Shown: positions 8,327 to 51,372 of the stretch, one piece after another
Position numbering within the stretch: position 1 is the first letter of the stretch
Layout: each line of letters begins with the position of its first letter
NCBI GenBank assembly: GCA_012522805.1
Contig: JAAYJS010000002.1
Location: forward strand, 1 to 51,372
Direction: 5' to 3'
Source of the DNA: Eubacteriaceae bacterium
GTDB lineage: Bacteria > Bacillota > Clostridia > Eubacteriales > Eubacteriaceae
DNA: 51,372 nucleotides
Position numbers and translations under genes: made by a program
The notes under the pieces: model-generated
Told to the model about the DNA's origin: nothing
Database searches by the model: none
The model's input: only the letters and a program-made list of their open reading frames with translations

Positions 8327-8338
8327 AGGTGGAGTTCA

Positions 8339-8902
8339 GTGGAAGAAAAAAAATATCAGAATGCAATAAACGAAGAAATACTAGAACCGGAAAAAAAGTC
8401 GGATTTGGCCGAGGAAATACCCGAGGAAACGATTGAAGACAGGTCAGATGAAAAAGCTGACACAACTTTAGATCATGCTGAAGAAAAACTGGAGCAGATG
8501 ACCAATCAAATGATGCGTCTGCAGGCAGACTTTGAAAACTATAAAAAAAGAACGATCAAAGAGAAAACTGAAATCGGAAAATATGCCTTGGAAGGTTTTA
8601 TCAATAAATTATTACCGGTTCTCGACAATATCGATAGGGCAGTAGAAGCTCTGCCGGAAACGCAAGATGGCTATATAGAAGGTGTTCTCATTGTATTTAA
8701 TCAATTAAAAGAAATCTTAGAAAAAGAAGGCTTAAGCGAAATCGATACATTGGGCAAACCCTTCGATCCAAACTTCCACCATTGTGTGGTGATGGGCGAA
8801 GATCCTGACAAGGCTTCCAATGAAGTCTTAGAAGTTTTGCAAAAAGGTTATGAATTAAAAGGCAAAGTACTGAGACCGACAATGGTCATGGTCAATCAAT
8901 AA
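8339..8902 (+). CDS. grpE: Nucleotide exchange factor GrpE
   Basis: The 187-residue protein has an acidic, low-complexity N-terminus, a long coiled-coil (about 45-100, including RLQADFENYKKRT) and the C-terminal beta domain with LGKPFDPNFHHCVV and VLQKGYELKGKVLRPTMVMV. GrpE drives ADP release from DnaK. The start is GTG at 8339, supported by AAAGGTGGAG upstream. It lies between hrcA and dnaK in the standard order. Confidence 0.95.
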   Translation: MEEKKYQNAINEEILEPEKKSDLAEEIPEETIEDRSDEKADTTLDHAEEKLEQMTNQMMRLQADFENYKKRTIKEKTEIGKYALEGFINKLLPVLDNIDRAVEALPETQDGYIEGVLIVFNQLKEILEKEGLSEIDTLGKPFDPNFHHCVVMGEDPDKASNEVLEVLQKGYELKGKVLRPTMVMVNQ

Positions 8903-8936
8903 ATAGAAAAAACAATAAACTCCAGGAGGAAATAAA

Positions 8937-10766
8937 ATGAGTAAAGAAAAGATTATTGGTATAGATTTAGGAACAACAAATTCTTGTGTCGCTGTTTTAG
9001 AAGGTGGCGAACCGATTATCATTCCCAACGCAGAGGGCGAACGCACCACCCCGTCGGTTGTAGCGTTTACGAAAGACGGTGAAAGATTGGTCGGGCAAGT
9101 GGCAAAACGCCAAGCTGTGACCAACCCCACGAGAACCATCACCTCTGTTAAAAGACATATGGGCAGCGATTTTAAAGAAACTATCGATGATAAAAGTTAT
9201 ACCCCCCAAGAAATTTCCGCAATGATATTACAAAAATTAAAAACAGATGCAGAAGCTTATCTTGGAGAAACCATCGGCAAAGCAGTTATTACTGTACCGG
9301 CTTACTTCAGTGACGCCCAAAGGCAAGCGACGAAAGATGCCGGACGTATTGCAGGCTTGGAGGTACTGAGAATTATCAATGAGCCTACTGCAGCAGCATT
9401 GGCTTATGGTATGGAAAAAGATGAAGCGCAAAAAATTATGGTCTTCGACTTAGGTGGCGGTACCTTTGACGTTTCTATCTTAGAATTAGGAGACGGTGTA
9501 TTTGAAGTAAAAGCGACCAACGGTAACAACCGCTTAGGTGGCGACGACTTCGACGACAAAGTGATCGACTGGATGGTTGATGAATTCAAAAAATCGGAAA
9601 ACATCGACCTGAAATCCGATAAAATGGCGCTGCAACGATTAAAAGAAGCAGCTGAAAAAGCAAAAATTGAATTGTCTTCTGTTCTTAAAACAGAAATCAA
9701 TTTACCCTTTATTACTGCTACCCAAGAAGGTCCGAAACATATGGAATTGACTTTAACCAGAGCTAAATTCGATGAATTGACAGAATCTCTTGTCAATGCA
9801 ACCGTCGAACCGGTAGAAAAGGCAATGAAGGATGCGGGACTGGGTAAAAACGAATTGCACAAAGTCATATTAGTCGGTGGTTCAACACGTATCCCCGCAG
9901 TTCAAGATCTAGTTAAAGATTTAACCGGAGAAGACGCCTACAAAGGCATTAACCCTGACGAATGTGTCGCTCTTGGAGCTGCCATTCAAGGTGGTGTCTT
10001 AGCTGGAGAGGTTCAAGATGTTTTACTGTTGGATGTTACCCCGCTATCCTTAGGAATCGAAACTTTGGGTGGTGTCTTTACAAAATTAATTGAAAGAAAC
10101 ACCACGATTCCAACGAAGAAGAGCCAAGTATTCTCCACCGCAGCGGACAATCAAACGGCTGTAGATATCCACGTTCTTCAAGGTGAAAGAGAAATGGCCA
10201 ATGCCAACAAAACCTTGGGGCGCTTCCAATTGGACGGCATCCCGGCAGCACGTAGAGGTATTCCACAAATAGAAGTAACCTTTGATATTGATGCCAACGG
10301 TATTGTCAACGTCTCTGCAAAAGACATGGGAACCGGCAAAACTCAAAATGTCGTCATCAAATCGACCACAAATATGAGCGAAGATGAAATTAATCAAGCT
10401 GTGAAAGAAGCGGAATTACACGCTGAAGAAGATAAAAAATTAAAAGACTTAGTAGAAGCTAGAAATAATGCCGATGCAACGATTTACCAAACCGAGCAAA
10501 CCTTAAAAGAAATGGAAGGTAAAGTAAGCGAGGCAGATACCGCACCGATCAACGACGCGATCGAAAAATTGAAAGGTTTAAAGGAAGGCGAAGATGCACA
10601 AGCGATCAAAGATGCCATCCAAGAATTAAACGAAGCGATTTATCCAATAGCACAAAAAATGTATGAACAAACAGCACAATCTGCAGAAACTGATCAAGCC
10701 CAAAGCGAAGATGACAACAGCAATGTTGAAGAAGCAGATTTCGAAGAAATAAAAGATGATGAATAA
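8937..10766 (+). CDS. dnaK: Molecular chaperone DnaK (Hsp70)
   Basis: The 609-residue protein is a complete Hsp70. It has the ATPase signatures [14 protein letters not shown] at the N-terminus, [15 protein letters not shown] near residue 170 and [13 protein letters not shown] near 310, then the substrate-binding domain and helical lid. The tail [12 protein letters not shown] is a typical acidic DnaK end. It refolds unfolded proteins with DnaJ and GrpE, both encoded beside it. AGGAGG lies before its ATG. A short perfect hairpin separates it from dnaJ. Confidence 0.97.
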
Positions 10767-10772
10767 AAGATC

Positions 10773-10800
10773 AATGGCAGCATTTGCTGCCATTTGATTT
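10773..10800 (+). terminator. Hairpin between dnaK and dnaJ
   Basis: AATGGCAGC (10773-10781) and GCTGCCATT (10786-10794) form a perfect 9-bp stem with a 4-base loop and a mixed T-rich tail. It may reduce read-through into dnaJ or stabilise the upstream mRNA. Confidence 0.5.
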
Positions 10801-10862
10801 AAATTTCAGTTTGCAGTTTATGATCTTTTTCTTTTGTGCTACACTGTTAGCGAGGTGATGGA

Positions 10863-12008
10863 ATGAGTGAAAAAAGAGATTATTATGAGGTGTTAGGAGT
10901 TGGAAAAGACGCCGATGCCGAAGAAATAAAAAAAGCATACCGAAAACTGGCCATGCAGTATCACCCGGATAAAAACCCGGACGATAAAGTAGCGGAAGAA
11001 AAGTTTAAAGAAGCTAACGAAGCCTACGAAGTGCTCTCTGACGAGCAAAAACGTCGAGATTACGACCAATTTGGACACGCCGGTGTAGATGGCGGTTTCC
11101 AACAAGGCAGCGGATTCGGCGGTGGTTTTGGCGGCTTTGAAGATATCTTCAGCGACATATTCTCCTCTTTTGGGGGAAGAGGCGGTTTTGGCGATGCGGG
11201 CTATGGTCGCCCTAGGGGTCCTCAAAGAGGGTCCGACATGCGTATCACCTTAACTTTAGACTTTAAAGAAGCGGTTTTCGGTGTAGATAAAAAGATAAAA
11301 ATTAAAAGGCGAGAATCCTGTTCTCATTGTAAGGGGACCGGAGCCGAAGGCCAAAGCTCTGTTAAAACCTGTGATCAATGTGGCGGTACAGGGGTCAACT
11401 ATATACGTCAACAAACCCCCTTTGGTACCATACAGCAAACAACCACGTGTAATAAATGTAATGGTGAAGGACAAATCATCGATAACCCCTGTAGTCAATG
11501 CCATGGTAGCGGCTTAGAAACCCAAGAAAGAACGATAAACATCAAAATACCGGCCGGTGTCGATACCGGCTCCACCATTCCGCTCCGTGGAGAAGGTAAC
11601 GCAGGTATGCGAGGCGGCCCCCAAGGGGATCTGTATGTATATCTCAATGTCAGAGAAGACCCCTTATTTAGACGAGACGGTATGGATGTATCCTTCGAGA
11701 TGCCCATAACCTTTACCCAAGCTGCTCTGGGAGCAGAAGTGGTCGTACCGACCTTAGATGGAAAAATTAAATTGAAAATACCGGAAGGCACACAAACGGG
11801 CAAAATTTTTAGGCTCAAAGGTAAGGGTATCAAAAACGTCAATGGACGGGGTATTGGAGACTTGTACATTTCAACAACAGTAGAAACCCCAAGGCGTTTA
11901 AACAAAAAACAAAAAGAAATGTTAAAAGAATTTGAAAACAGCTATAGCAGCGAAAACAACAAAAACAACGAAAGTTTTTGGTCGAGAATCAAAAATTCAT
12001 TTCAATAA
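10863..12008 (+). CDS. dnaJ: Co-chaperone DnaJ (Hsp40)
   Basis: The 381-residue protein has all type I DnaJ parts. They are a J domain with the HPD motif (YHPDKNPDD near residues 33-41), a Gly/Phe-rich linker (about 75-115), four zinc-binding repeats [24 protein letters not shown] and CSQCHGSG, and the C-terminal substrate domains with GDLYVYLNV. It stimulates DnaK ATPase. GAGGTGATGG precedes the ATG. The gene is 96 bases after dnaK and is followed by two hairpins. Confidence 0.97.
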
Positions 12009-21797: not shown

Positions 21798-22073
21798 ATG
21801 TTGTTCTGTCATATCTGTAATGTAGAGATTTTCAACAAGGGGAACTTTTCCATAAAAAGAGAAAATTCTATTTGTATTTTTTGTATCAATAGAAATGAAA
21901 CGAATTTCGATAGTTCTCCTTCAACGACGGTAACCATCCTTAAAAAAAGATCGGGTGATCAAGTATCTGAATACCTTTGCAAAACGATCAAAAACGAACA
22001 TATAAACGGACAATTAAAATTATCGTTAGATGGCAAAAAAACATTAAATTTAAATAGAATTATTAAAGAATAA
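21798..22073 (+). CDS. Small CxxC-CxxC protein, function unknown
   Basis: The 91-residue reading frame has Cys4-x2-Cys7 and Cys26-x2-Cys29, a spacing that suits a small zinc ribbon. The rest is basic and polar and I do not recognise it. The cysteine layout recalls the sigma-G inhibitor Gin of spore formers, but the similarity is only in pattern. Doubt comes from the start: the ATG lies at the very end of the liv terminator, with no clear ribosome-binding site. A terminator-like hairpin at 22087-22109 after the stop supports a real gene. Confidence 0.4.
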   Translation: MLFCHICNVEIFNKGNFSIKRENSICIFCINRNETNFDSSPSTTVTILKKRSGDQVSEYLCKTIKNEHINGQLKLSLDGKKTLNLNRIIKE

Positions 22074-22111: not shown

Positions 22112-22151
22112 ATTGTTAAATAACAAACGATATTTTTACGAATTTAACAAT
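22112..22151 (+). promoter_or_regulatory. Inverted-repeat operator next to the DeoR promoter
   Basis: ATTGTTAAAT (22112-22121) and ATTTAACAAT (22142-22151) are perfect 10-base inverted arms 20 bases apart. The right arm touches the -35 box. Two CGAAA repeats 10 bases apart (near 22195-22209) lie just before the gene, the kind of short direct repeat that DeoR-family repressors often use. Autoregulation is inferred. Confidence 0.5.
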
Positions 22152-22179
22152 TGACACATTTCGACGAGGGTGCTATAAT
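22151..22179 (+). promoter_or_regulatory. Promoter of the DeoR-type regulator
   Basis: TTGACA (22151-22156) and TATAAT (22174-22179) match consensus exactly with 17 bases between. This is one of the strongest promoters in the window and is probably kept off by an operator. Confidence 0.85.
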
Positions 22180-22213: not shown

Positions 22214-22969
22214 ATGTACGCTGAAGAGAGAAGAGAATATATCTTAAAAAAACTACAAACGGACGGTAAGGTATCCGTCTTGGATCTTTCAGATGAACTG
22301 CAAGTATCGGAGGTTACTATACGAAGAGACTTGGCGGTTATGGATGATATGAATTTATTAACCAGAACCTACGGTGGTGCTATTGAACGCAAATCCGTTA
22401 CCGAACAGTTTTCTTATATAGAAAGGGAAACCTTAAATATTGATTCAAAAAAACATATCGCAAAAAAAGCTTCGACTTTTTTGAGAGAACGAACCTCCAT
22501 TTTTCTGGATGCAGGCACCACAGTTCGACAACTCATCCCCTATGTAGGCGAACTAAATTCTGCAACGGTCATCACCTTCGATATCGCCATGGCAACGGAT
22601 TTGGCCAGGTATCCTCACATTACTACTGTATTAGTGGGCGGTTTTTTAGAGCATCAGACACTTTCCTTGGTAGGGATCGATACCTACAAAAAAATAGAAA
22701 CATTACAGGCGGATCTCTCTTTTATTGGGTGTGATGCTTTCAATGACACTGACGCATTTTCCACATCAACCATGAGAGCAGCCATCAAAGCAAAACTGAT
22801 TGAAAATTCTGATCAATCTGTTCTTATGTGTGACAGTTCCAAATATCGACAAAAAAGCCTCAACACATTTGCAAAACTCAAGGACTTTAATTGTTTTACC
22901 ACAGATCGTCATAACGATCGTCTCAATAAATTTTTAAGTGAACAGTCGTTGAAAAACGTCATTCAATAA
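22214..22969 (+). CDS. DeoR-family transcriptional regulator
   Basis: The 251-residue protein starts with the DeoR helix-turn-helix (EERREYILKKLQTDGKVSVLDL, then VSEVTIRRDLAVM at residues 29-43 and RTYGGAI). It continues with the sugar-phosphate sensing DeoRC domain, including IFLDAGTTVRQL and the FIGCDAF motif. DeoR regulators usually respond to phosphorylated sugars made by the pathway they control. It stands at the head of the dehydrogenase, aldolase, LarA-like, GntP and FGGY-kinase genes, so it is the probable local repressor. The ribosome-binding site before ATG is weak. Confidence 0.88.
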   Translation: MYAEERREYILKKLQTDGKVSVLDLSDELQVSEVTIRRDLAVMDDMNLLTRTYGGAIERKSVTEQFSYIERETLNIDSKKHIAKKASTFLRERTSIFLDAGTTVRQLIPYVGELNSATVITFDIAMATDLARYPHITTVLVGGFLEHQTLSLVGIDTYKKIETLQADLSFIGCDAFNDTDAFSTSTMRAAIKAKLIENSDQSVLMCDSSKYRQKSLNTFAKLKDFNCFTTDRHNDRLNKFLSEQSLKNVIQ

Positions 22970-23065
22970 TTCAATCATTTTATAAGGTGGTGTAAATTTT
23001 TACTCAAAAGAAGTTCATATTTACGGCAATCCATTCAATTTATTAATAACGGGAGGTTAATTATT

Positions 23066-24163
23066 ATGAGCAAAGATATTAAGACAATGATTTTAGGCGA
23101 TGCCATGATCGGTCACAAAGGGTTTGTAGAAGCTTGGGACAAATACCTTGCAAGTGATTTCGGATCGGATGTCATCGCAGGTGATTTCGAAACAAATTGG
23201 GATCAATTACAATTCAGACGTTTGGAAGTGGAAAAACAAGGTCCGGAAATTGAAGAAGTAGACGCTTTGATCGCTGAAAAAGGCGAAGACAGGGAAGCTC
23301 TTTTCGGATTATTTGTACCGGTTTCAAGCAAAGTTATGGACGCAATGCCGAACTTGAGAATTGTCGGCGTATCTCGCGCAGGGTTGGAAAACGTCAATGT
23401 TGAAGAAGCAACAAAAAGAGGTATTTTGGTTTTTAACGTCAAAGGTAGAAACGCCCACGCCGTTTCCGATTTTACGATCGGCATGATGTTGGCAGAAGCC
23501 AGAAACATCGGTCGTGCCCACGCAGCCATTAAAAAAGGAGAATGGCAAAAAACCTTCTCCAACTCCGATAATGTACCGGAACTCAACGGAAAAACCGTGG
23601 GGTTAGTTGGTTATGGGTATATCGGACATTTGGTCGCTAAGAAATTATCCGGGTTTGATGTCAATGTTATCGTTTATGACCCTTATGTCGATGCGGCCGA
23701 GTTACAAAAAGACGGTTGCGAAAAAGTAGAGCTCAATGACTTGTTTAAACGCGCCGACATCGTATCCGTGCACGCCAGATTGACGGATGCAAATAAGAAA
23801 ATGATCGGTAAAGAACAATTTGACTTGATGAAACCCACAGCAATTTTTGTCAACACGGCAAGAGCAGGCTTGGTAGATTTTGACGCTTTAACGCAAGCAT
23901 TACAGGAAAAGAAAATCTTGGGCGCAGCTTTGGACGTATTCATCACGGAACCGCTGGAAGCGGACAACCCTTTAAGAGACTTGGATAACGTTACCTTAAC
24001 TACGCATATAGCCGGTACAACTTCCGACGCATTGACCAATTCGCCCTTCCTCTTATTGGAAGATGTAACATCCTTCTTAAAAGAAGACGCGGCCAAATTT
24101 ATTGTCAATAAAGAAGTCTTGGAAAACGACGATTTTAAAGCATGGTTATCTTCCAAGAAATAA
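23066..24163 (+). CDS. NAD-dependent D-2-hydroxyacid dehydrogenase family protein
   Basis: The 365-residue protein has the 2-hydroxyacid dehydrogenase fold. It shows GYGYIG at 182-187 with Asp205 for NAD, and the catalytic trio Arg266 (NTARAGLVD), Glu295 (ITEPLE) and His314 (THIAG). It is longer at the N-terminus than typical SerA or LdhA catalytic halves and has no ACT domain, so it is unlikely to be the biosynthetic phosphoglycerate dehydrogenase. It would oxidise the C2 hydroxyl of a D-hydroxy acid or reduce a 2-keto acid. The aldolase gene starts 10 bases later. A neighbouring LarA-family enzyme could supply the right C2 epimer. The substrate is unknown. Confidence 0.82.
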   Translation: MSKDIKTMILGDAMIGHKGFVEAWDKYLASDFGSDVIAGDFETNWDQLQFRRLEVEKQGPEIEEVDALIAEKGEDREALFGLFVPVSSKVMDAMPNLRIVGVSRAGLENVNVEEATKRGILVFNVKGRNAHAVSDFTIGMMLAEARNIGRAHAAIKKGEWQKTFSNSDNVPELNGKTVGLVGYGYIGHLVAKKLSGFDVNVIVYDPYVDAAELQKDGCEKVELNDLFKRADIVSVHARLTDANKKMIGKEQFDLMKPTAIFVNTARAGLVDFDALTQALQEKKILGAALDVFITEPLEADNPLRDLDNVTLTTHIAGTTSDALTNSPFLLLEDVTSFLKEDAAKFIVNKEVLENDDFKAWLSSKK

Positions 24164-24173
24164 GAGAGTAAAC

Positions 24174-25010
24174 ATGTTAGTTAATCTAAGAGACATCATC
24201 CAAGATGCCTACAAAAACAAATACGCTCTGGGCTCCTTCAACGGTTATAACTTTGAAACCTTCAAGGGAACCGTCGATGCGGGCGTCGAAAAAAACGTAC
24301 CGGTTATTGTGGCATTCGGTGCAAAATACTTAACAAATATGAGCTTAAAAACTGCTCATGCCATGGTTCAAAGCATTGCGGAGGAAGTCAACATTCCCGT
24401 CTGTCTGCACTTGGACCATTGCAGCGATATGGATATTATCTTTGAAGCGATCGATATCGGTTTCGGATCCGTCATGTACGACGGCTCCATGCTGCCCTTC
24501 GAAGAAAACCTGGCCAACACCAAAAAAGTATGCGAAAAAGCCCATGCCAAGGGTGTATCCGTCGAAGCGGAACTGGGAAGTTTGGCCGCCGGTGCGGAAT
24601 CCCACGAAGGCTCCGCCGACGACAAAGAGGTCTACACAGATCCGGATAAAGCAAAAGAATTCGTCGAAGAAACCAAAGTCGATTGCCTTGCGGTATCGAT
24701 CGGAACAGTTCACGGATTGTACAAAGGTACCCCGGAAATCAGAATAGATATCTTAAAGGAAATCAACGAAAAATGTCAAATACCTTTGGTACTTCACGGT
24801 GGCAGCGGCACTCCGGAAGATGTTTTAAAAGCATCCATCGAAAACGGAATTGCTAAAATTAACGTCAACACGGAAATTTCAAAACAAGTGGTCGAAGACA
24901 CACTTAAGTCTCTGTCGGAAAAAACGGTCCACTACTCCGTATTATCCTTGGAACAAAGAGACAGTGTCAAAAAAGTTGTAGAAAAATATATTGACATCTA
25001 CAAAAATTAA
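24174..25010 (+). CDS. Class II (zinc) fructose-bisphosphate/tagatose-bisphosphate-type aldolase
   Basis: The 278-residue enzyme has the class II aldolase core: catalytic Asp81 and zinc ligand His82 in LHLDHC, zinc ligands His180 (GTVHG) and His208 (LHGGSG), and phosphate-binding NVNTEI. Its length and the EAELG phrase near 131 place it with GatY/KbaY/FbaA-type aldolases that split ketose phosphates into dihydroxyacetone phosphate and an aldehyde. The start at 24174 is chosen because it follows the dehydrogenase stop and gives the family N-terminus. It is cotranscribed with the dehydrogenase. In this locus it probably cleaves the phosphorylated pathway intermediate rather than the glycolytic one. 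Confidence 0.85.
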   Translation: MLVNLRDIIQDAYKNKYALGSFNGYNFETFKGTVDAGVEKNVPVIVAFGAKYLTNMSLKTAHAMVQSIAEEVNIPVCLHLDHCSDMDIIFEAIDIGFGSVMYDGSMLPFEENLANTKKVCEKAHAKGVSVEAELGSLAAGAESHEGSADDKEVYTDPDKAKEFVEETKVDCLAVSIGTVHGLYKGTPEIRIDILKEINEKCQIPLVLHGGSGTPEDVLKASIENGIAKINVNTEISKQVVEDTLKSLSEKTVHYSVLSLEQRDSVKKVVEKYIDIYKN

Positions 25011-25097
25011 ACGGAGTATTTGGACTTAAAACATCGTGTTTAATGGTATGGCTTATAAAGCATTATGATCATATTATTATAAATTAAGGTAGATATT

Positions 25098-25320
25098 ATG
25101 AAAAAATCTATCAAAATATTAGCGTTATTGTTGGCTTTGTTTTTTAAATGAGTTGTTTTATAGGTTGTGGCGGTAGCGAGAGCAAAGGTGGAGTTTATTT
25201 TAAGATATATCCAATCAAAGAAGATGTTTGGCATAAAACCTCGGAGGTCTTTAAATAAACGGAATGGATCTGGATGAGGAATTATACACCAAAATATTAA
25301 AAGAATTGGGACGTCAATAA
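25098..25320 (+). pseudogene. Degenerate solute-binding lipoprotein remnant
   Basis: The sequence starts with a good lipoprotein signal (MKKSIKILALLLALFF), but the frame breaks in a T6 run near 25139-25144. The next frame continues as SCFIGCGGSESKGG and then KIYPIKEDVWHKTSEVF. A third frame ends as GMDLDEELYTKILKELGRQ and a stop. The pieces look like the two ends of an extracytoplasmic binding protein, possibly of the TRAP (DctP) type, with the middle deleted and at least two frameshifts. It lies between the aldolase and the LarA-like gene, where an uptake gene would fit. Confidence 0.55.
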
Positions 25321-25486
25321 TATAAAAGTATAAACCTCAATAATAAAGATTAAACTATAGGTAAGGTTGAAACATTAGCTGAAATTTAATTAAAAAAATT
25401 ACAAATTGCATGTACCATTAATATTTGTGAACTCAGTCGTTGAGGAATTTCATTTAACCCACCTATACTATATAAGGAGGTAATGT
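25321..25486. other. AT-rich spacer before the LarA-like gene
   Basis: No gene is seen here. With the pseudogene, it makes a 475-base gap between the aldolase and LarA-like genes. TATACT at 25464-25469 resembles a -10 but lies too close to the ribosome-binding site to be useful. No terminator was found. Confidence 0.4.
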
Positions 25487-26803
25487 ATGAAACTTTTTGA
25501 AGATTCATTTATACCGAAAATGTATCGTGTAAAACAACATCAGAAGACAATAAACTTGGAGGACGTTGAAGGCGTTGTTGGACAACAATCGAAAAATATT
25601 CTAAATAAAATAAATAAAGGTGATCGGATCGGCATTGCTGCCGGAAGTCGCGGCATTTACCAATATAATAAAATTGTTAAAGCAACAGTGTCGGCTGTAA
25701 AAAAAGCTGGTGGAGAACCTTATATTATACCGGCCATGGGCAGTCACGGAGGTGCGACGGCTAAAGGTCAAACGGAAGTACTTAAAAGTTATGGAATTGA
25801 CGAGAAGAGTATGGGGGCTCCTGTATTAGCAACGATGGAAACCGTTGTTATTGGACACACTCCTGGAGGCATCCCTGTGCATTTTGATAAAAATGCTTAC
25901 GAAATGGATGGCATTATTTTAGTCAATCGTGTCAAACCACATACGGATTTTAACGGTACCATAGAAAGCGGTATCATCAAACAAATGGTAGTGGGTTTAG
26001 GCAAGCAGAAGGGTGCTTCCGCTATTCATCGTAGAGGTATAGAAGGTTTGACGGATGGTATACCGGAATGTGCACAAATTATTTTGGCAGACAGACCTAT
26101 ATTAATGGGTGTTGCTATTTTAGAAAATCAGGAAGATCGTACTGCTGAAATTGTGGTTTTACCGGCTAAGGATTTTCAAAAAGAAGAAAAGATACTATTA
26201 GAAAGAGCCAGATCTTACATGCCTTCTTTTCCTGTTGAGGATTTTGATGTTCTGGTCTTACAGGAAATGGGTAAAAATATTTCCGGAACCGGAATTGATC
26301 CAAATGTGGTGGGGCGTTATTTAATACGAAATGTTGAAGATCAAAAACCGAATATATATCGCATCGTTTGTCTGGATTTAACAGAAGAAAGTCATGGCAA
26401 TGCCATCGGTGTCGGTATTGCAGATCTGATTACTGAAAAAATGGCAAAGAAAATTGATTGGAACCCCACGTATATCAATACGATCACTTCCGGTTTTTTA
26501 GAAAGAGGGTTTATGCCCGTTGTAGCTCAAAGTGATCGAGATGCCATAGAAATTGCCTTAAATTGTTGCAATCGTTTGACGACAGCAAGTAATTCACGGA
26601 TGATCATGGTAAAAAATACCTTGGATCTTAAAGAAATTATTGTATCGGAAGCCCTCTTGGAAGAGTTAAAAGAGAAAGAAGAGATTGAGATTTTAGGTGA
26701 GGTTGAGCTTAAGTGGGATGAGGAAGGTTACCTCAGCCCTTTGTTTAAAAAAAAATCAGCCGGTATTTCAAAATTTAAAATAGGGGATATATCTAACAAA
26801 TGA
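25487..26803 (+). CDS. LarA-family nickel-pincer nucleotide racemase/epimerase homologue (DUF2088)
   Basis: The 438-residue protein keeps the key residues of lactate racemase LarA. Lys165 in SGIIKQM is the predicted covalent cofactor site, and His181 lies exactly 16 residues later, matching the nickel ligand spacing of Lys184/His200 in the Lactobacillus enzyme. His87 (MGSHGG), His152 (KPHTDF) and Arg55 (AGSRGI) match the catalytic His/His/Arg set. Compared with LarA there is a 3-residue insertion between His152 and Lys165. Known LarA homologues racemise or epimerise various 2-hydroxy acids, including sugar acids. The genes around it suggest a polyhydroxy acid. AAGGAGG precedes the ATG. Maturation needs LarB, LarC and LarE. 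Only a LarC C-terminal-domain protein is in the window (39025). Confidence 0.85.
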   Translation: MKLFEDSFIPKMYRVKQHQKTINLEDVEGVVGQQSKNILNKINKGDRIGIAAGSRGIYQYNKIVKATVSAVKKAGGEPYIIPAMGSHGGATAKGQTEVLKSYGIDEKSMGAPVLATMETVVIGHTPGGIPVHFDKNAYEMDGIILVNRVKPHTDFNGTIESGIIKQMVVGLGKQKGASAIHRRGIEGLTDGIPECAQIILADRPILMGVAILENQEDRTAEIVVLPAKDFQKEEKILLERARSYMPSFPVEDFDVLVLQEMGKNISGTGIDPNVVGRYLIRNVEDQKPNIYRIVCLDLTEESHGNAIGVGIADLITEKMAKKIDWNPTYINTITSGFLERGFMPVVAQSDRDAIEIALNCCNRLTTASNSRMIMVKNTLDLKEIIVSEALLEELKEKEEIEILGEVELKWDEEGYLSPLFKKKSAGISKFKIGDISNK

Positions 26804-26880
26804 TACCTTTTATTTTTATGATGATTGCAGTCGCCCTGATGGTTGCCTTTGTTCCCGGATTGTGGGATTTACTTTTGTAG
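26800..26880 (+). pseudogene. 26-residue hydrophobic frame, probable transporter C-terminal remnant
   Basis: An ATG overlapping the LarA-like stop (ATGA) opens a 26-residue, almost wholly hydrophobic frame (MIPFIFMMIAVALMVAFVPG, then LWDLLL). It resembles the last membrane helix of a TRAP large permease (DctM), suggesting that the rest was deleted. It could instead be a translationally coupled small membrane peptide, since the overlap would allow translation. Confidence 0.4.
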
Positions 26881-27013
26881 AAACTAGGATGTTCTCAGCA
26901 AATTTTTATCATTTAAAGTAGGGAAAGTCCGGAGTTTTATTTAAGTATTAACGGGGCTTAGGGTCGTGCGGTAAAACAAGTTGTAATAATATGTTGAAAG
27001 GAAAGATTCAATT

Positions 27014-28402
27014 ATGGCTACGGGACAAATTATATTAGCTTTTATTTTGGCTTTGGCTTTTGTGTTGATCACAATTATTAAATTTAATATGCACCCCTTC
27101 TTCTCACTATTACTCGGTGGGTTGTTGATGGGTGTTATATCCGGAATTGGCCTTTTGGAGATCTCTGCAGGTTTGGCAGCAGGCTTCGGAAGCACCATGG
27201 CGGGCATCGGTATTTTGATTATTTCCGGTGTTATTTTAGGCGAATTGCTGCATGCTTCCGGTTGTATGGAAGAAATAGCCAATTTATTTATTCAGAAACT
27301 GGGCATTGAAAACACGCCCTTAGCGATGAACTTGACGGGATACTTGGTTTCTATTCCGGTATTCTTTGACGCCGCTTTTGTTATTTTGGTAAACTTGGCA
27401 AAATCCCTTTCTCAAAAAGGTAAGATTCCTTTCGTCTCTTTAGTAACCGCTTTAAGCGTCGGTTTGATTACCACCCACGCAATGGTTATTCCGACACCCG
27501 GTCCAACAGCGGTAGCCGGTACCATGGGTGCCAATGTCGGTTGGTTTATTTTCTATGGAATTATTACTTCTTTAATCGGCTCTGTTACCGGTGGTGTCAT
27601 CTATGGACGTTTTCTAGGTAAAACAGCAGAATTTAAAGACAATTTTGCCCAGGATTTTAAAGAAGCGGAAGCCGTTGCGGATCAAAACAGTGGCAATAAT
27701 GTAAAAAAACCTTCCGGTGAAACAGGTATCCTTTTAATTCTTCTTCCAATTTTGTTCATCTTGGTCGGTACCATTGTCACCATGTTTTTGGAAAAAGGTA
27801 CGATGATGCACACCATCTTCGGTTTTATCGGAGACAAAAACGTTGCGTTGATTACAGCTGTTCTGATCAGTTATGCAGTTCTTAAAGATTCCCTGAAAAA
27901 AGATTTAAACGAAATGACTTCCAGTGCAACTTCTCAAGCAGGTGCTATTTTAGCCATTACCGGTGCCGGCGGTGCTTTCGGATCGATTATTACCCTAAGC
28001 GGTATCGGTGAGGTCATCGTTGAAGGTTTATCCAGTATGACCAGCTCTACCGGTGCAGGGACGGTCGTTATCTTGGCAGCGTTTATGATTTCCGCTTTAT
28101 TGCGTATTGCACAAGGTTCTACAACGGTTGCATTGGTTACCACTTCGGCTATCTTTGCTCCGATTGTAACGGGCTTAGCAGGGACGTCTCCGGTATTGGT
28201 CGGTTTGGCCATTTGTGCCGGTGGTTTAGGGTTCTCCTTACCCAACGACTCCGGTTTCTGGGTTGTCAACCGCTTCTCCAACTTTACAACACAACAAACC
28301 TTAAAAGTTTGGACCGTCGGTGGCTCCGTTTCCGGACTGGCTGCTTTGCTTGCAGTGGTTATCCTCAGCTTCTTATCCGGAGTACTTCCCGGACTGATGT
28401 AG
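27014..28402 (+). CDS. GntP-family gluconate/sugar-acid permease
   Basis: The 462-residue protein has about 12 to 14 membrane helices and GntP-family phrases such as HPFFSLLLGGLLMG, SIPVFFDAAFVIL, THAMVIPTPGPTAVAG and LPNDSGFWVVNRFS. The family imports gluconate and related sugar acids with protons or sodium. AAAGGAAAG lies before its ATG. It sits between the LarA-like gene and the FGGY kinase and is the best candidate for substrate uptake in this locus. Confidence 0.9.
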   Translation: MATGQIILAFILALAFVLITIIKFNMHPFFSLLLGGLLMGVISGIGLLEISAGLAAGFGSTMAGIGILIISGVILGELLHASGCMEEIANLFIQKLGIENTPLAMNLTGYLVSIPVFFDAAFVILVNLAKSLSQKGKIPFVSLVTALSVGLITTHAMVIPTPGPTAVAGTMGANVGWFIFYGIITSLIGSVTGGVIYGRFLGKTAEFKDNFAQDFKEAEAVADQNSGNNVKKPSGETGILLILLPILFILVGTIVTMFLEKGTMMHTIFGFIGDKNVALITAVLISYAVLKDSLKKDLNEMTSSATSQAGAILAITGAGGAFGSIITLSGIGEVIVEGLSSMTSSTGAGTVVILAAFMISALLRIAQGSTTVALVTTSAIFAPIVTGLAGTSPVLVGLAICAGGLGFSLPNDSGFWVVNRFSNFTTQQTLKVWTVGGSVSGLAALLAVVILSFLSGVLPGLM

Positions 28403-28439
28403 TCAGATTTTGAAAATCTAAGAAAGGGGGACAGTCAAT

Positions 28440-29954
28440 TTGTATATTGTAGCGATCGATGTCGGTACTTCGTCGATGAAATCCGTTTTATACAATGATA
28501 GCGGAAAGCTTTTAAAAGTTTTTATGCATGAGTATTATTCGGAATACCCACAAGAAGGGTACGTCGAACAAGACCCTGTTACATGGAAAGATGCCTTGGA
28601 GGACGTTCTCTGTAAAATGGGCGACTATTGCTCCGATCAAAACTTGAAGGTCGATGCTCTATCCGTTACTTCGCAAAGATCTTCCTTAATCCCCATGGAT
28701 GAAAACGGAGAACCGCTGTGCAAAGCGATCATGTGGCAAGATAAAAGAACTTTGCCCCAATGTGACAAGTTAATTGAAGAATTTGGGCTCGATTATTTTT
28801 ATCAAAAAACAGGTCTCCGCATTAACCCGTATTTCGTGTTGCCGAAAATATTGTGGCTACAAGAAAACGAAACGGAAATATTTAATAAAGCGGTTAAATT
28901 TATCGGTGTTATGGACTATGTCGTCAAATTGTTGACCGATGCATACGTGACCGATCATTCCCAGGCGTGTCGAACATGTCTAATGGACATTAAAGAATTC
29001 AAATGGGATCCTGAATTGCTAAAACTTGGCAATATTCAGGAAGAACAATTGCCTAAATTGGTTGCTCCGGGCACCGTTGCCGGCGGGTTGGTTTCCGATC
29101 TTGCCGAAAGGGCAAATTTAGCTGCGGGCATACCAGTTGTGTTGGGCGGTGGCGACCAACAAGCTTCCGCAATAGCCTTAGGTGTGATCAAGCAAGGGTC
29201 CGCTGAAGCCAATACCGGAACAGGCTCTTTCGTTCTCTCCGCTGTGGACAAACCTTATTTCGATAAAGAAAACAGAGTGTTGTTGCAAGCGGCGGCCATC
29301 CCCGGAAAATGGATCATGGAAGCCGGTATCTTCAATACAGGCGCTGTTTATCGCTGGTTCAGAAATAATTTTTATAAAGAACTGGATGGTCAGAGCAATG
29401 CTTATCTCGTCATGAATGAGGAAGCACAAAACTCTAAACCCGGTGCAAATGGAATCATGATGATACCGCATTTTCAAGGAAGTGCAGCACCTTTTTGGAA
29501 TCCTTTAGCGAAGGGTGTATTTTTCAACCTGTCCTTAGATGATACCAGAGGTGACTTTGCCCGATCTATTCTGGAGGGCATATCCTTAGAAATTGCAGTT
29601 AACATCAAACTGATTCAGAAAATTATTGGAGACTTGGAAGTGGTTTCCGTTGCAGGGGGTATGACCAATGCGGATTTATTCTGCGAAATTCAGGCCAATT
29701 CCTTCGACCGAAAGGTCGCCAGGTACGAAAACCCTGAAGCCAGCTCCTTAGGTGCAGCGATGATCGCAGCCGTATCCCTAGGTGTATACAAAGATTTTGA
29801 GGAAGCCTTTGCCCGGATGGTGCAAAACAAACCGAAAATCTTTGAACCGGATGCAAAGCTGGTGGAGATCTACCGACATATTTATATCAGAAAAATGGTT
29901 TTATACGATGCTATCAGCGTCGGCGAAGTCTACGATGCTTATGTAGAAGATTGA
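28440..29954 (+). CDS. FGGY-family carbohydrate kinase
   Basis: The 504-residue protein has the FGGY N-terminal signature AIDVGTSSMKSVLYNDSG, MWQDKRT near residue 100, the ATP-site GTGSFVLS near 260 and the C-terminal block VAGGMTNADLFCEIQAN, then SSLGAAMIAAVSLGVY. It is closest in layout to gluconate and xylulose kinases. The start is TTG at 28440, backed by AAAGGGGG nine bases upstream; no better in-frame ATG exists. It ends the locus and is followed by a strong terminator. It would phosphorylate the imported or modified sugar (acid). Confidence 0.88.
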   Translation: MYIVAIDVGTSSMKSVLYNDSGKLLKVFMHEYYSEYPQEGYVEQDPVTWKDALEDVLCKMGDYCSDQNLKVDALSVTSQRSSLIPMDENGEPLCKAIMWQDKRTLPQCDKLIEEFGLDYFYQKTGLRINPYFVLPKILWLQENETEIFNKAVKFIGVMDYVVKLLTDAYVTDHSQACRTCLMDIKEFKWDPELLKLGNIQEEQLPKLVAPGTVAGGLVSDLAERANLAAGIPVVLGGGDQQASAIALGVIKQGSAEANTGTGSFVLSAVDKPYFDKENRVLLQAAAIPGKWIMEAGIFNTGAVYRWFRNNFYKELDGQSNAYLVMNEEAQNSKPGANGIMMIPHFQGSAAPFWNPLAKGVFFNLSLDDTRGDFARSILEGISLEIAVNIKLIQKIIGDLEVVSVAGGMTNADLFCEIQANSFDRKVARYENPEASSLGAAMIAAVSLGVYKDFEEAFARMVQNKPKIFEPDAKLVEIYRHIYIRKMVLYDAISVGEVYDAYVED

Positions 29955-29961
29955 AACTAGC

Positions 29962-30010
29962 AAAAAGAGTTTATACTGAATCGAAATTTGGTGTAAACTC
30001 TTTTTTTCTT
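29962..30010 (+). terminator. Terminator after the FGGY kinase
   Basis: AAAAAGAGTTTA and TAAACTCTTTTT form a long stem with a T-rich tail. It closes the sugar-acid locus. Confidence 0.85.
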
Positions 30011-48349: not shown

Positions 48350-49132
48350 CTAATTGAGAGAAGTTTCTATAGAATTTTTCATATACTTAACGAGTGCTTT
48401 CACCTTTGAATATAGTCCTTCCCACTTATCATCACACTCTCCCCGATAGCCTTTTCTAGCTATATCCAGTAAAGTTACATGCTCTTTAGGTAAAAGAGGT
48501 ATAGCCCATTCTGCAGCGACATCTTTCGAGGTAATTTCACCAGTAGTCACTGTTTGCCACATTCGAGCTAGGGTTAAAATTACATTACGCTCATCACCTT
48601 TTATCCCCTCAATTAGTTCTGGCAAAGAATCCTTAATTGCTCTTCGAATATCTGTCAAAGGTACGGAGACAAGTATACTTGAAGAATCAGGACCAAATAG
48701 AGAAATACTATTCTTTCTTGCTTGTGCTAAAACAATAGCCAAATCAGGATCATAGCTTGGTTCCTGAATTTGTCCATTCTCAAATTCACCCCTGAGCCAC
48801 TCACCGTATATAAATTCTCTTTTTGGAGGATATTGCCAAGGGACAACTTCACTCCTATTTATAACCGTAACTTCAAGTGGTCTAACAGAATCCGTATTTC
48901 CAATCTTTCCTGATATAGTCATTAGTCTTTCTGTTAGTTTTTTTCGAGTTAATTGAGGTAAACTATGATTCACGACGACTAGAACATCTACATCGCTGTT
49001 AATGCGTAAACCACCATTTACTGCTGAACCAAATAGATATACTCCAACTATTGAACTTCCAAATAAATCTTTTACGATTTTTAATGTTTGAATCGCTTGA
49101 TTTGGTATTTTTCCGTTAATCAAATTGCTCAT
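48350..49132 (-). CDS. ant(9)-Ia: Spectinomycin 9-adenylyltransferase ANT(9)-Ia
   Basis: The 260-residue protein has the nucleotidyltransferase motif LFGSAVNGGLRINSDVDVLV near residues 34-53, with the two metal-binding Asp residues. The C-terminal helical domain ends in KYMKNSIETSLN. Length and sequence fit the spc gene of Tn554, which adenylates spectinomycin. GAGGTGA precedes its ATG. It lies downstream of tnpC on the same strand, in the Tn554 order. Confidence 0.93.
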   Translation of the reverse strand: MSNLINGKIPNQAIQTLKIVKDLFGSSIVGVYLFGSAVNGGLRINSDVDVLVVVNHSLPQLTRKKLTERLMTISGKIGNTDSVRPLEVTVINRSEVVPWQYPPKREFIYGEWLRGEFENGQIQEPSYDPDLAIVLAQARKNSISLFGPDSSSILVSVPLTDIRRAIKDSLPELIEGIKGDERNVILTLARMWQTVTTGEITSKDVAAEWAIPLLPKEHVTLLDIARKGYRGECDDKWEGLYSKVKALVKYMKNSIETSLN

Positions 49133-49666: not shown

Positions 49667-51372
49667 TTACCCCGTCAAACTTCCAATGATTTGTTCTAAA
49701 CGCTCTTTAACACGGCTATTAGTCTCTACTTGTCTTTGCCATTGTTTATCCTTAGCTATGGCTAATAACTCTTCTGTACGCTCTAACTGTTCTTCGTGCT
49801 GTGGTAAGAATTGCTTACTGGTACAGAAGTGAGTGCAATCTAAGCATGCATTCGCATGTGGACAACCACCTGCTACTACTGGCAATCTACAATAACCATT
49901 TGGAAGCACTTGTGCATTTATATTTTTCTTGAACCATTGAAGCTCTACATCATCGACTTCATTATCTTCATCTAGATCAAGCACATCTCCATTATTGGTA
50001 ACCAGTTTTTCCTGAAATTTAGTAAATTCATTTTTTAGAGTTTCATCAAAGATATGAGCGTATCTGCTTGTCATTTCTGGGCTTTCATGCCCCAAAAATT
50101 TCTGCACAATATGCTGGGGCATCCCGTTGTTAATCATTCTTGTTCCTACTGTATGGCGAAAGGCATGGGCATGGAATCTATAAATCTCACCTGATTTATC
50201 CACTATATTTTGCTCATAAGCTAATTTATTTAACTCACCTCTAAATGTTTCTTGTTTTAATGGCGATCCATCTTTTCTTGGAAAGAGGTATTCACTATCT
50301 GGAAATTCCTCTGAAACTTTATCTTCCCGAACTTTAATAAGTAAAGCTACCTCTTTAGATATTGGAACTATATGCTCCTTTTTCATTTTCCATTGATAAT
50401 ACTTTAAAAAGAAATCTCCATCTTTGTCCTCTAATAGACAGCCTTTTTTCAAGGTGCACAATTCACTTATCCTCATTCCACATTCTTGAACAATCATAGT
50501 CATCGTAGCTATATATTCGGGTAATTTATCAAGACGACTGTTCAATTGCTCTAGGACGAATTCATCTATAAAGCGTGGTTTTGCTCTTGGTATTTTCGGA
50601 TAGTCCTCAGAATAAATTAATATTTTGGAAGGAACATCATCCCATTCTAGCCTAAGAAGGGTACTAAATAGTCCTTCCAATATAGAGATCCTCCCAGTTA
50701 TTGTACTAGGTTTTATTCCCATCATGTTTAGTTCACTTAAATATGCTTCAATTTCCACTCTCGTTAATTGGTGTACTCTCTGAACTTGTTTAAATTTCAT
50801 GTCCAGAAAATTAAAGAACTCTTTAAGTCTTTGGGCAATATCACTTACATAGGAAAAGCTATCCACGTTCAATCTCAACTTACAATATCTTTTTACAAGT
50901 TGTTTAAAATATGTATTCCGAAACCCTTTAAAGTTAATTGTATATTCATATTGTGTTGGGTTAACCTTATCATCTGGCAAAGGTAAGTTACGTCTATCCC
51001 AAACGTCTTTATCCCACTCCTCTCCATCAAAATAAAAGTTCTCATAAAACTCCATAAATTGTTTTAGATTAGTAACATAGTAGGAATTAGCTTTTACAGG
51101 TGTTTTTTCTTGATTAGCAGTAATCTTATAATTAGTAGTGGTAATTCTAACACCCCGTTTTGTCAAATAAGTTCTATACTCCGTCATTGCTTTTTCAATA
51201 GGAACTTCAGTAATTGAAGTAATGCTAGGATACTTTAAATCTAAGAAATCTAACATTTTATTAATTACTGTTCCTTTTCTAATCCAGACAGTTTTTGCAT
51301 TCCATATTCCATTGTTTAAATGGTAAAAATAAAAATATTTCAATTCTGTTCTTAACCACAGATTTTTAACAC
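49667..51372 (-). CDS. tnpB: Tn554 transposase B, tyrosine recombinase (5' end beyond the window)
   Basis: The visible 568 or so codons carry the tyrosine-recombinase catalytic residues: Arg in ECGMRISEL, His-x-x-Arg in [10 protein letters not shown], His in LGHES and the nucleophile Tyr in SRYAHIF. A cysteine-rich stretch ([14 protein letters not shown]) follows near the end. A TTG at 51343 could be read as a start, but the frame stays open to the right edge and Tn554 TnpB is about 630 residues, so about 60 residues and tnpA probably lie outside. TnpB acts with TnpA and TnpC in site-specific insertion. Confidence 0.93.

Follow-up and report, generated by a model that had tools for sequence, protein, structure and literature searches.

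Six intact open reading frames, all read in one direction on the forward strand, occupy positions 22214 to 29954 of the window, by which we mean the whole 51,372-nucleotide stretch of Eubacteriaceae DNA analysed here. Their positions and family profiles confirm the span and the families given in the initial annotation: a DeoR regulator, a 2-hydroxyacid dehydrogenase, a class II aldolase, a LarA homologue, a GntP permease and an FGGY kinase. The strong promoter and strong terminator said to frame them are also found. A predicted sigma-70-type promoter (22151–22179, + strand; TTGACA-17-TATAAT, a TG preceding the second hexamer) matches 12 of 12 consensus positions, and an intrinsic-terminator-like hairpin with a 20-pair stem and a T tract follows at 29962–30005 (+). 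Neighbors on the upstream side include ABC transporter genes of the branched-chain amino-acid type, and those on the downstream side an oligopeptide ABC set; the cluster therefore forms a discrete unit.

Within this frame, gene packing is uneven. The GntP and FGGY genes are 37 bases apart, and packing is loose around the gene of the LarA homologue, which is preceded by a 476-base spacer (25011–25486, +) of degenerate coding-like sequence with a lipoprotein-like fragment and is separated from the GntP gene by 210 bases. Its GC3 is 0.31, compared with 0.43–0.50 in the neighboring enzyme genes, and the GC of the 476-base gap, 0.29, is likewise below that of those genes. Owing to this loose packing and lower G+C, transcription of all six genes as a single message is plausible only. 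The spacers flanking the epimerase gene contain fragments that resemble the start of a lipoprotein and the end of a membrane protein. A blastp search with them returned no match, and profile searches for TRAP-transporter remnants reached at best E 0.8 for DctM and gave none for DctP, so that we make no claim of a TRAP origin.

The Regulator, Enzymes and Permease

The first gene (22214–22969, +; DeoRC 137 bits, with HTH_DeoR) encodes a DeoR-family repressor 28–32% identical to E. coli YdjF, YgbI and AgaR. It is followed by a D-isomer-specific 2-hydroxyacid dehydrogenase with an N-terminal extension (23066–24163, +; 2-Hacid_dh_C 203 bits), which reaches the cut-off of none of the NCBIfam equivalog models. 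The third product is a class II aldolase of the FBA/KbaY/YdjI type (24174–25010, +; F_bP_aldolase 302 bits); its best start is the ATG at 24174, and the open reading frame list uses a TTG farther upstream, at 24102. When aligned with KbaY and YdjI, the protein retains D81, H82, E131, H180, H208, GGSG and NVNT, so that the catalytic Asp, the metal-binding His and the DHAP-phosphate motifs of a class II DHAP-dependent aldolase are all present. Because the metal ligands and phosphate motifs are retained, DHAP is the most likely product of this enzyme.

Downstream of the LarA homologue lie a GntP-family acid permease (27014–28402, +; GntP_permease 336 bits) and an FGGY-family kinase with a TTG start (28440–29954, +; FGGY_N/FGGY_C, 220+113 bits). 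Neither could be narrowed further by family: YgbN, DsdX, GntU and the other E. coli GntP members score alike against the permease at about 30% identity, which precludes placement in one E. coli subfamily, and the kinase falls below every equivalog cut-off, including those for xylulokinase (XylB, 323 against 380 bits), gluconokinase (GntK, 274 against 649) and glycerol kinase (GlpK, 284 against 590).

A Divergent, Probable Nickel-Pincer Epimerase

The LarA homologue (25487–26803, +) scores 526 bits with NF052515, the NCBIfam model “nickel pincer cofactor-dependent isomerase, group 22”, for which the curated cut-off is 400 bits. Its score with Pfam Lar_N, 20.6 bits, is under the cut-off of 23.3, marking it as a divergent member of the superfamily. 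Sequence searches for LarA structures, with either the single protein or a 50-sequence profile, gave chance matches only, and a fold search was required. With an AlphaFold model built from 50 relatives (pLDDT 92), all 18 Foldseek matches at E ≤ 0.001 were LarA-family, and VIA-align gave Z of 19–21 against LarA, Mar2 and GntE2, the next fold scoring 6.4. Clear matches are to LarA-family structures only: lactate racemase, malate racemase, single-histidine homologues and T. maritima GntE.

The five key residues listed in the initial annotation are exactly as it had them: R55, H87, H152, K165 and H181 are invariant in the 50-sequence alignment of relatives. Their equivalence to LarA1 R75, H108, H174, K184 and H200 was set by order and motif; of these, R75, K184 and H200 are the NPN-binding Arg, Lys and His, and H108 and H174 the catalytic His. 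The second catalytic His, H152, is followed by T153-D154. The positions of LarA1 F175 and F176 carry F-F in lactate racemases and E and V in GntE (PMC11770544), and the T-D pair matches neither signature. The host genome also encodes LarB, LarC and LarE; LarB was identified from the sequence of the gene immediately ahead of LarC.

Given a LarA-only fold, the retained key residues, the presence of LarB, LarC and LarE and the sugar-acid catabolic loci of its relatives, this sequence and model evidence indicates that the protein is very probably a working nickel-pincer C2 epimerase of a 2-hydroxy acid, as first proposed. It would be conceivable from superfamily membership that the enzyme is a racemase of lactate or another simple hydroxy acid, unrelated to the sugar genes around it, but its subfamily is divergent, T-D stands where lactate racemases have F-F, and its relatives are located in sugar-acid loci; we consider such a role very improbable.

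In open-access articles we found no assay of group 22 or of the six-gene combination. No group-22 enzyme was found among the enzymes named in PMC11770544, nor does the activity table of Desguin 2020 (PMC7583248) contain one; the latter study also notes that the activity of LarA homologues cannot always be predicted from gene context.

Group-22 Relatives and Their Neighborhoods

Group 22 scores above the cut-off in 23 of 391 genomes of the class. This sample was enlarged by 80 named loci from a contig search, and 105 loci with the gene were analysed. Within 7 kb of the gene, with cluster representatives checked and as raw counts without a random-locus baseline, the neighbors include TRAP transporters (37 of 105 loci), 2-hydroxyacid dehydrogenases (21), IlvD/EDD-like proteins (19), galactarate/altronate-type dehydratases (18), PdxA2, DUF1537 kinases and FAH proteins (17 each), ketoglutarate-semialdehyde dehydrogenase (15), and LarB and LarE (10 each). 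Sixteen of the 105 loci, spread over Bacillota, Bacteroidota and Armatimonadota, have both PdxA2 and DUF1537. The pairing of GntP with a LarA-type epimerase recurs in other genomes: GntP adjoins a group-22 epimerase in five other loci, all five with PdxA2 and DUF1537 (Fisher p 5e-5, for loci that belong to related Bacillaceae and hence are not independent).

A tree of the 105 proteins separates members linked to PdxA2 and DUF1537 from those linked to dehydratases, with two changes each compared with 13.2 in shuffles and none of 500 shuffles as low; because the tree comes from a fast method that leaves some deep branches open, this separation should be read as a tendency and not as a fixed clade. 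The cluster's epimerase groups with the PdxA2 and DUF1537 half. Its nearest rows are a paralogue from its own genome and a protein of the same family in a PdxA2–DUF1537 operon. The paralogue, on contig C39, is 76% identical and adjoins two cyclase-family hydrolases; an orthologue of 64–65% identity occurs in four genomes of the same family, all four with a conserved operon of PdxA2, DUF1537, PrpR, epimerase and cyclase. Since a downstream cyclase is common to this operon and the paralogue, the C39 gene would be the ancestral copy, and the epimerase gene of the cluster a duplicate that was taken into a different, new operon. Between the two copies, dN is 0.15 and dS is saturated, which is compatible with purifying selection and yields no ratio. 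The genome also has a DUF1537–PdxA2 pair of its own, downstream of transketolase halves on contig C22, where LarB and LarC lie close by; this is the only DUF1537 found in the genome, the kinase of the cluster being FGGY.

Two Apparent Modules in One Cluster

The exact six-family set was not recovered among the 105 group-22 loci or the sampled genomes of the class. Since the initial annotation had named a lack of co-occurrence in related genomes as grounds for refutation, a conserved six-gene pathway is not supported. Parts of the set recur. Orthologues of the dehydrogenase (59–63%) occur in four genomes, in three of them (G226, G436 and G438) paired with an FGGY kinase of 48–50% identity and in the fourth (G318) with an aldolase (55%) and a kinase; the epimerase is absent beside all four. 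More distant arrangements are SorC–dehydrogenase–aldolase–FGGY in G410 and dehydrogenase–aldolase beside a fructose-type PTS in G425, the regulator and the transporter, respectively, being named from sequence. The epimerase, aldolase, dehydrogenase and FGGY kinase share one neighborhood in G082 (locus L047), at a low identity of 27–49%. As dehydrogenase, aldolase and FGGY occur without the epimerase, and GntP and epimerase occur with PdxA2 and DUF1537, the cluster appears to combine two modules, dehydrogenase–aldolase–FGGY and GntP–epimerase.

This raises the idea that the modules are joined in place and not in function, such that GntP and the epimerase feed the D-threonate pathway of the DUF1537–PdxA2 pair on the other contig, and the dehydrogenase, aldolase and FGGY kinase form a separate neighboring pathway. 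The existence of that pair on C22, the dehydrogenase–aldolase–kinase core or its parts at loci without epimerase or GntP (L174, L171–L173, L176), and the differing GC3 and long flanking spacers of the epimerase gene would all agree with it. Against this, all genes share a direction and one promoter–terminator frame, GntP and FGGY nearly abut, and in G082, too, an epimerase has an aldolase, a dehydrogenase and FGGY as neighbors. We judge such a division unlikely.

A Candidate Four-Carbon Acid Route

The cluster very probably encodes a pathway for an acid sugar, one step of which is catalysed by a working NPN epimerase. To this extent the initial proposal of a pathway for C4–C6 polyhydroxy acids stands, and the range of substrates can be narrowed, as the close relatives of the epimerase point to four-carbon acids. 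That these relatives sit with PdxA2 and DUF1537 of the D-threonate pathway is our reason for suggesting a four-carbon substrate, a moderately supported refinement, and the better-supported one, on which we regard the balance as even.

Both C2 configurations occur among four-carbon acid sugars, 2R in D-erythronate and L-threonate and 2S in D-threonate and L-erythronate. The 2R acids are the substrates of D-specific 2-hydroxyacid dehydrogenases, and PdxB, of the same dehydrogenase family, oxidises 4-phospho-D-erythronate. With a 2R-specific dehydrogenase, the epimerase would therefore admit the 2S acids. In the route that we propose, GntP would import a stereoisomer of threonate or erythronate, and the group-22 enzyme, passing a hydride reversibly to its NPN cofactor, would invert the hydroxyl at C2, interconverting for instance D-threonate (2S) and D-erythronate (2R). 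Oxidation of the 2R epimer by the dehydrogenase would give the 2-oxo acid, the FGGY kinase would phosphorylate O4, and the class II aldolase, acting as a decarboxylase, would release DHAP, with DeoR as the presumed repressor of the cluster. We infer the substrate, direction and order of these steps and the decarboxylase role of the aldolase, as well as everything after the epimerase, and as a whole the scheme falls somewhat short of an even chance.

Several observations weigh against it. The full set is in no other genome examined, so that its genes could have come together by chance or only recently. None of the three enzymes, dehydrogenase, aldolase and kinase, belongs to the LtnD, OtnC or OtnK families, and we know of no FBA-type aldolase that serves as a tetronate-phosphate decarboxylase. 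Related dehydrogenase–aldolase pairs by a fructose-type PTS (L177) suggest a neutral or larger sugar. Finally, the genome's own DUF1537–PdxA2 pair could already handle D-threonate, and a second route would then be redundant.

A five- or six-carbon acid and a true aldol cleavage make up a serious competing explanation, which we hold to be nearly as likely as the four-carbon scheme, if still the less favored reading. GntP would then import a pentonate, hexonate or ketouronate, the epimerase would set C2, FGGY would phosphorylate a carbon adjoining a keto group, and the aldolase would yield DHAP and glyoxylate or tartronate semialdehyde, either of which the dehydrogenase would reduce. Such a cleavage suits an aldolase in which both the metal ligands and the DHAP-phosphate motifs are intact and which is a near relative of E. 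coli YdjI, an enzyme with the annotation octuluronate-1-phosphate aldolase. A family model names the sole scanned dehydrogenase linked to group 22 as a glyoxylate reductase, the pair at L177 lacks a kinase, which would fit phosphorylation by the PTS, and the other half of group 22 accompanies sugar-acid dehydratases. Yet the epimerase of the cluster is outside that half, in the one linked to PdxA2 and DUF1537; GntP–epimerase pairs elsewhere occur with PdxA2 and DUF1537 only; and the cluster encodes no enzyme that makes the required 4- or 5-keto group.

Should the four-carbon route be correct, a nickel enzyme would join the breakdown of erythronate and of threonate, a compound formed from vitamin C, and the cluster would illustrate how a single pathway can take in both C2 epimers. 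Many groups of the LarA superfamily have no known substrate, and the neighborhoods described here give group 22 a first concrete and cheaply testable function, with a suggested role in C2 inversion, of tetronates for one half and of larger sugar acids for the dehydratase-linked half. We found no description of tetronate C2 epimerisation for the LarA superfamily, where such activity is described for the 4-deoxy tetronates only. The broader proposal that the half of group 22 linked to PdxA2 and DUF1537 consists of tetronate C2 epimerases, and that in this cluster a 2-hydroxyacid dehydrogenase, an FGGY kinase and an FBA-type aldolase working as decarboxylase replace LtnD, OtnK and OtnC in a new route to DHAP, is tentative and, in our estimation, doubtful.

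Relation to Known Systems

In E. coli, ygbI encodes a DeoR regulator, ygbJ a dehydrogenase, ygbK a kinase, ygbL a decarboxylase and ygbN a transporter, and ygbIJKLMN also includes an isomerase. The cluster resembles this operon and the bacterial L-threonate and D-erythronate route LtnD–OtnI–OtnK–OtnC in having DeoR, a GntP-type transporter, a dehydrogenase, a kinase and an enzyme of aldolase type, and in its proposed end product, DHAP. It differs in using 2-hydroxyacid dehydrogenase, FGGY and FBA-type proteins, in lacking OtnI and in adding a nickel-pincer epimerase; it would correspond, without homology, to the LtnD–OtnK–OtnC route and to ygbIJKLMN, extended by an epimerase. A three-step tetronate variant likewise leads to DHAP through a dehydrogenase, 2-OtnK and 2-OtnC (PMC12540250).

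A group-22 epimerase and GntP accompany the D-threonate pair DtnK (DUF1537) and PdxA2 in other genomes, whereas both members of the pair are absent from this cluster and are encoded on another contig. The epimerase shares with GntE, the D-gluconate 2-epimerase of LarA groups 19/20, the fold of NPN-dependent C2 epimerases, the key residues and a sugar-acid context, but belongs to another LarA group, has T-D and not E-V after the second catalytic His, and is 12% identical to the GntE structure 4NAR. The E. coli ydjE-J genes also combine DeoR, a dehydrogenase, a kinase and a class II aldolase, YdjI, which belongs to the subfamily of the cluster's aldolase (37% identity); their kinase and dehydrogenase families differ from those of the cluster, and they include neither an epimerase nor GntP.

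Related epimerase loci

The genome that carries the operon also harbors, on contig C39 (locus L035, region 8327-11273), a second epimerase gene of NPN isomerase group 22, whose product is 76% identical to the epimerase of the operon. This paralogue is flanked on both sides by hydrolases of the cyclase family (PF04199), the downstream one of which is also retained next to the orthologue found in genomes of the same family. One possible role for the cyclase-family hydrolase is that of a lactonase acting on the lactone of the acid.

A separate half of group 22 (L086, L088, L090, L091, L128, and other Bacillaceae-type loci) possesses its own set of linked genes, encoding an IlvD-like protein of 734 aa, a galactarate/altronate-type dehydratase, an FAH protein, a ketoglutarate-semialdehyde dehydrogenase, and a TRAP transporter. 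These dehydratase-linked loci probably represent a second sugar-acid pathway that includes a putative epimerase.

Transketolase genes in split form repeatedly adjoin DUF1537-PdxA2 or group-22 epimerase genes, as seen on contig C22 of the same genome (L036, 14122-18441), in L052, and in L047, and this recurrent proximity suggests that transketolase is connected in some way with the breakdown of tetronates.

Other features of the window

Both long spacers flanking the epimerase gene (25011-25486 and 26804-27013) contain decayed coding-like sequence, the remnants comprising a lipoprotein-like start and a short tail resembling a membrane protein, for which searches gave no significant match. A 91-aa ORF (21798-22073), which follows the ABC transporter and precedes the promoter of the operon, matched none of the family models. 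At the contig end, an AadA-like aminoglycoside adenylyltransferase gene (48350-49132, minus strand) and a nearby tyrosine-recombinase gene of the phage integrase family (49667-51343, minus strand) perhaps constitute a mobile element.
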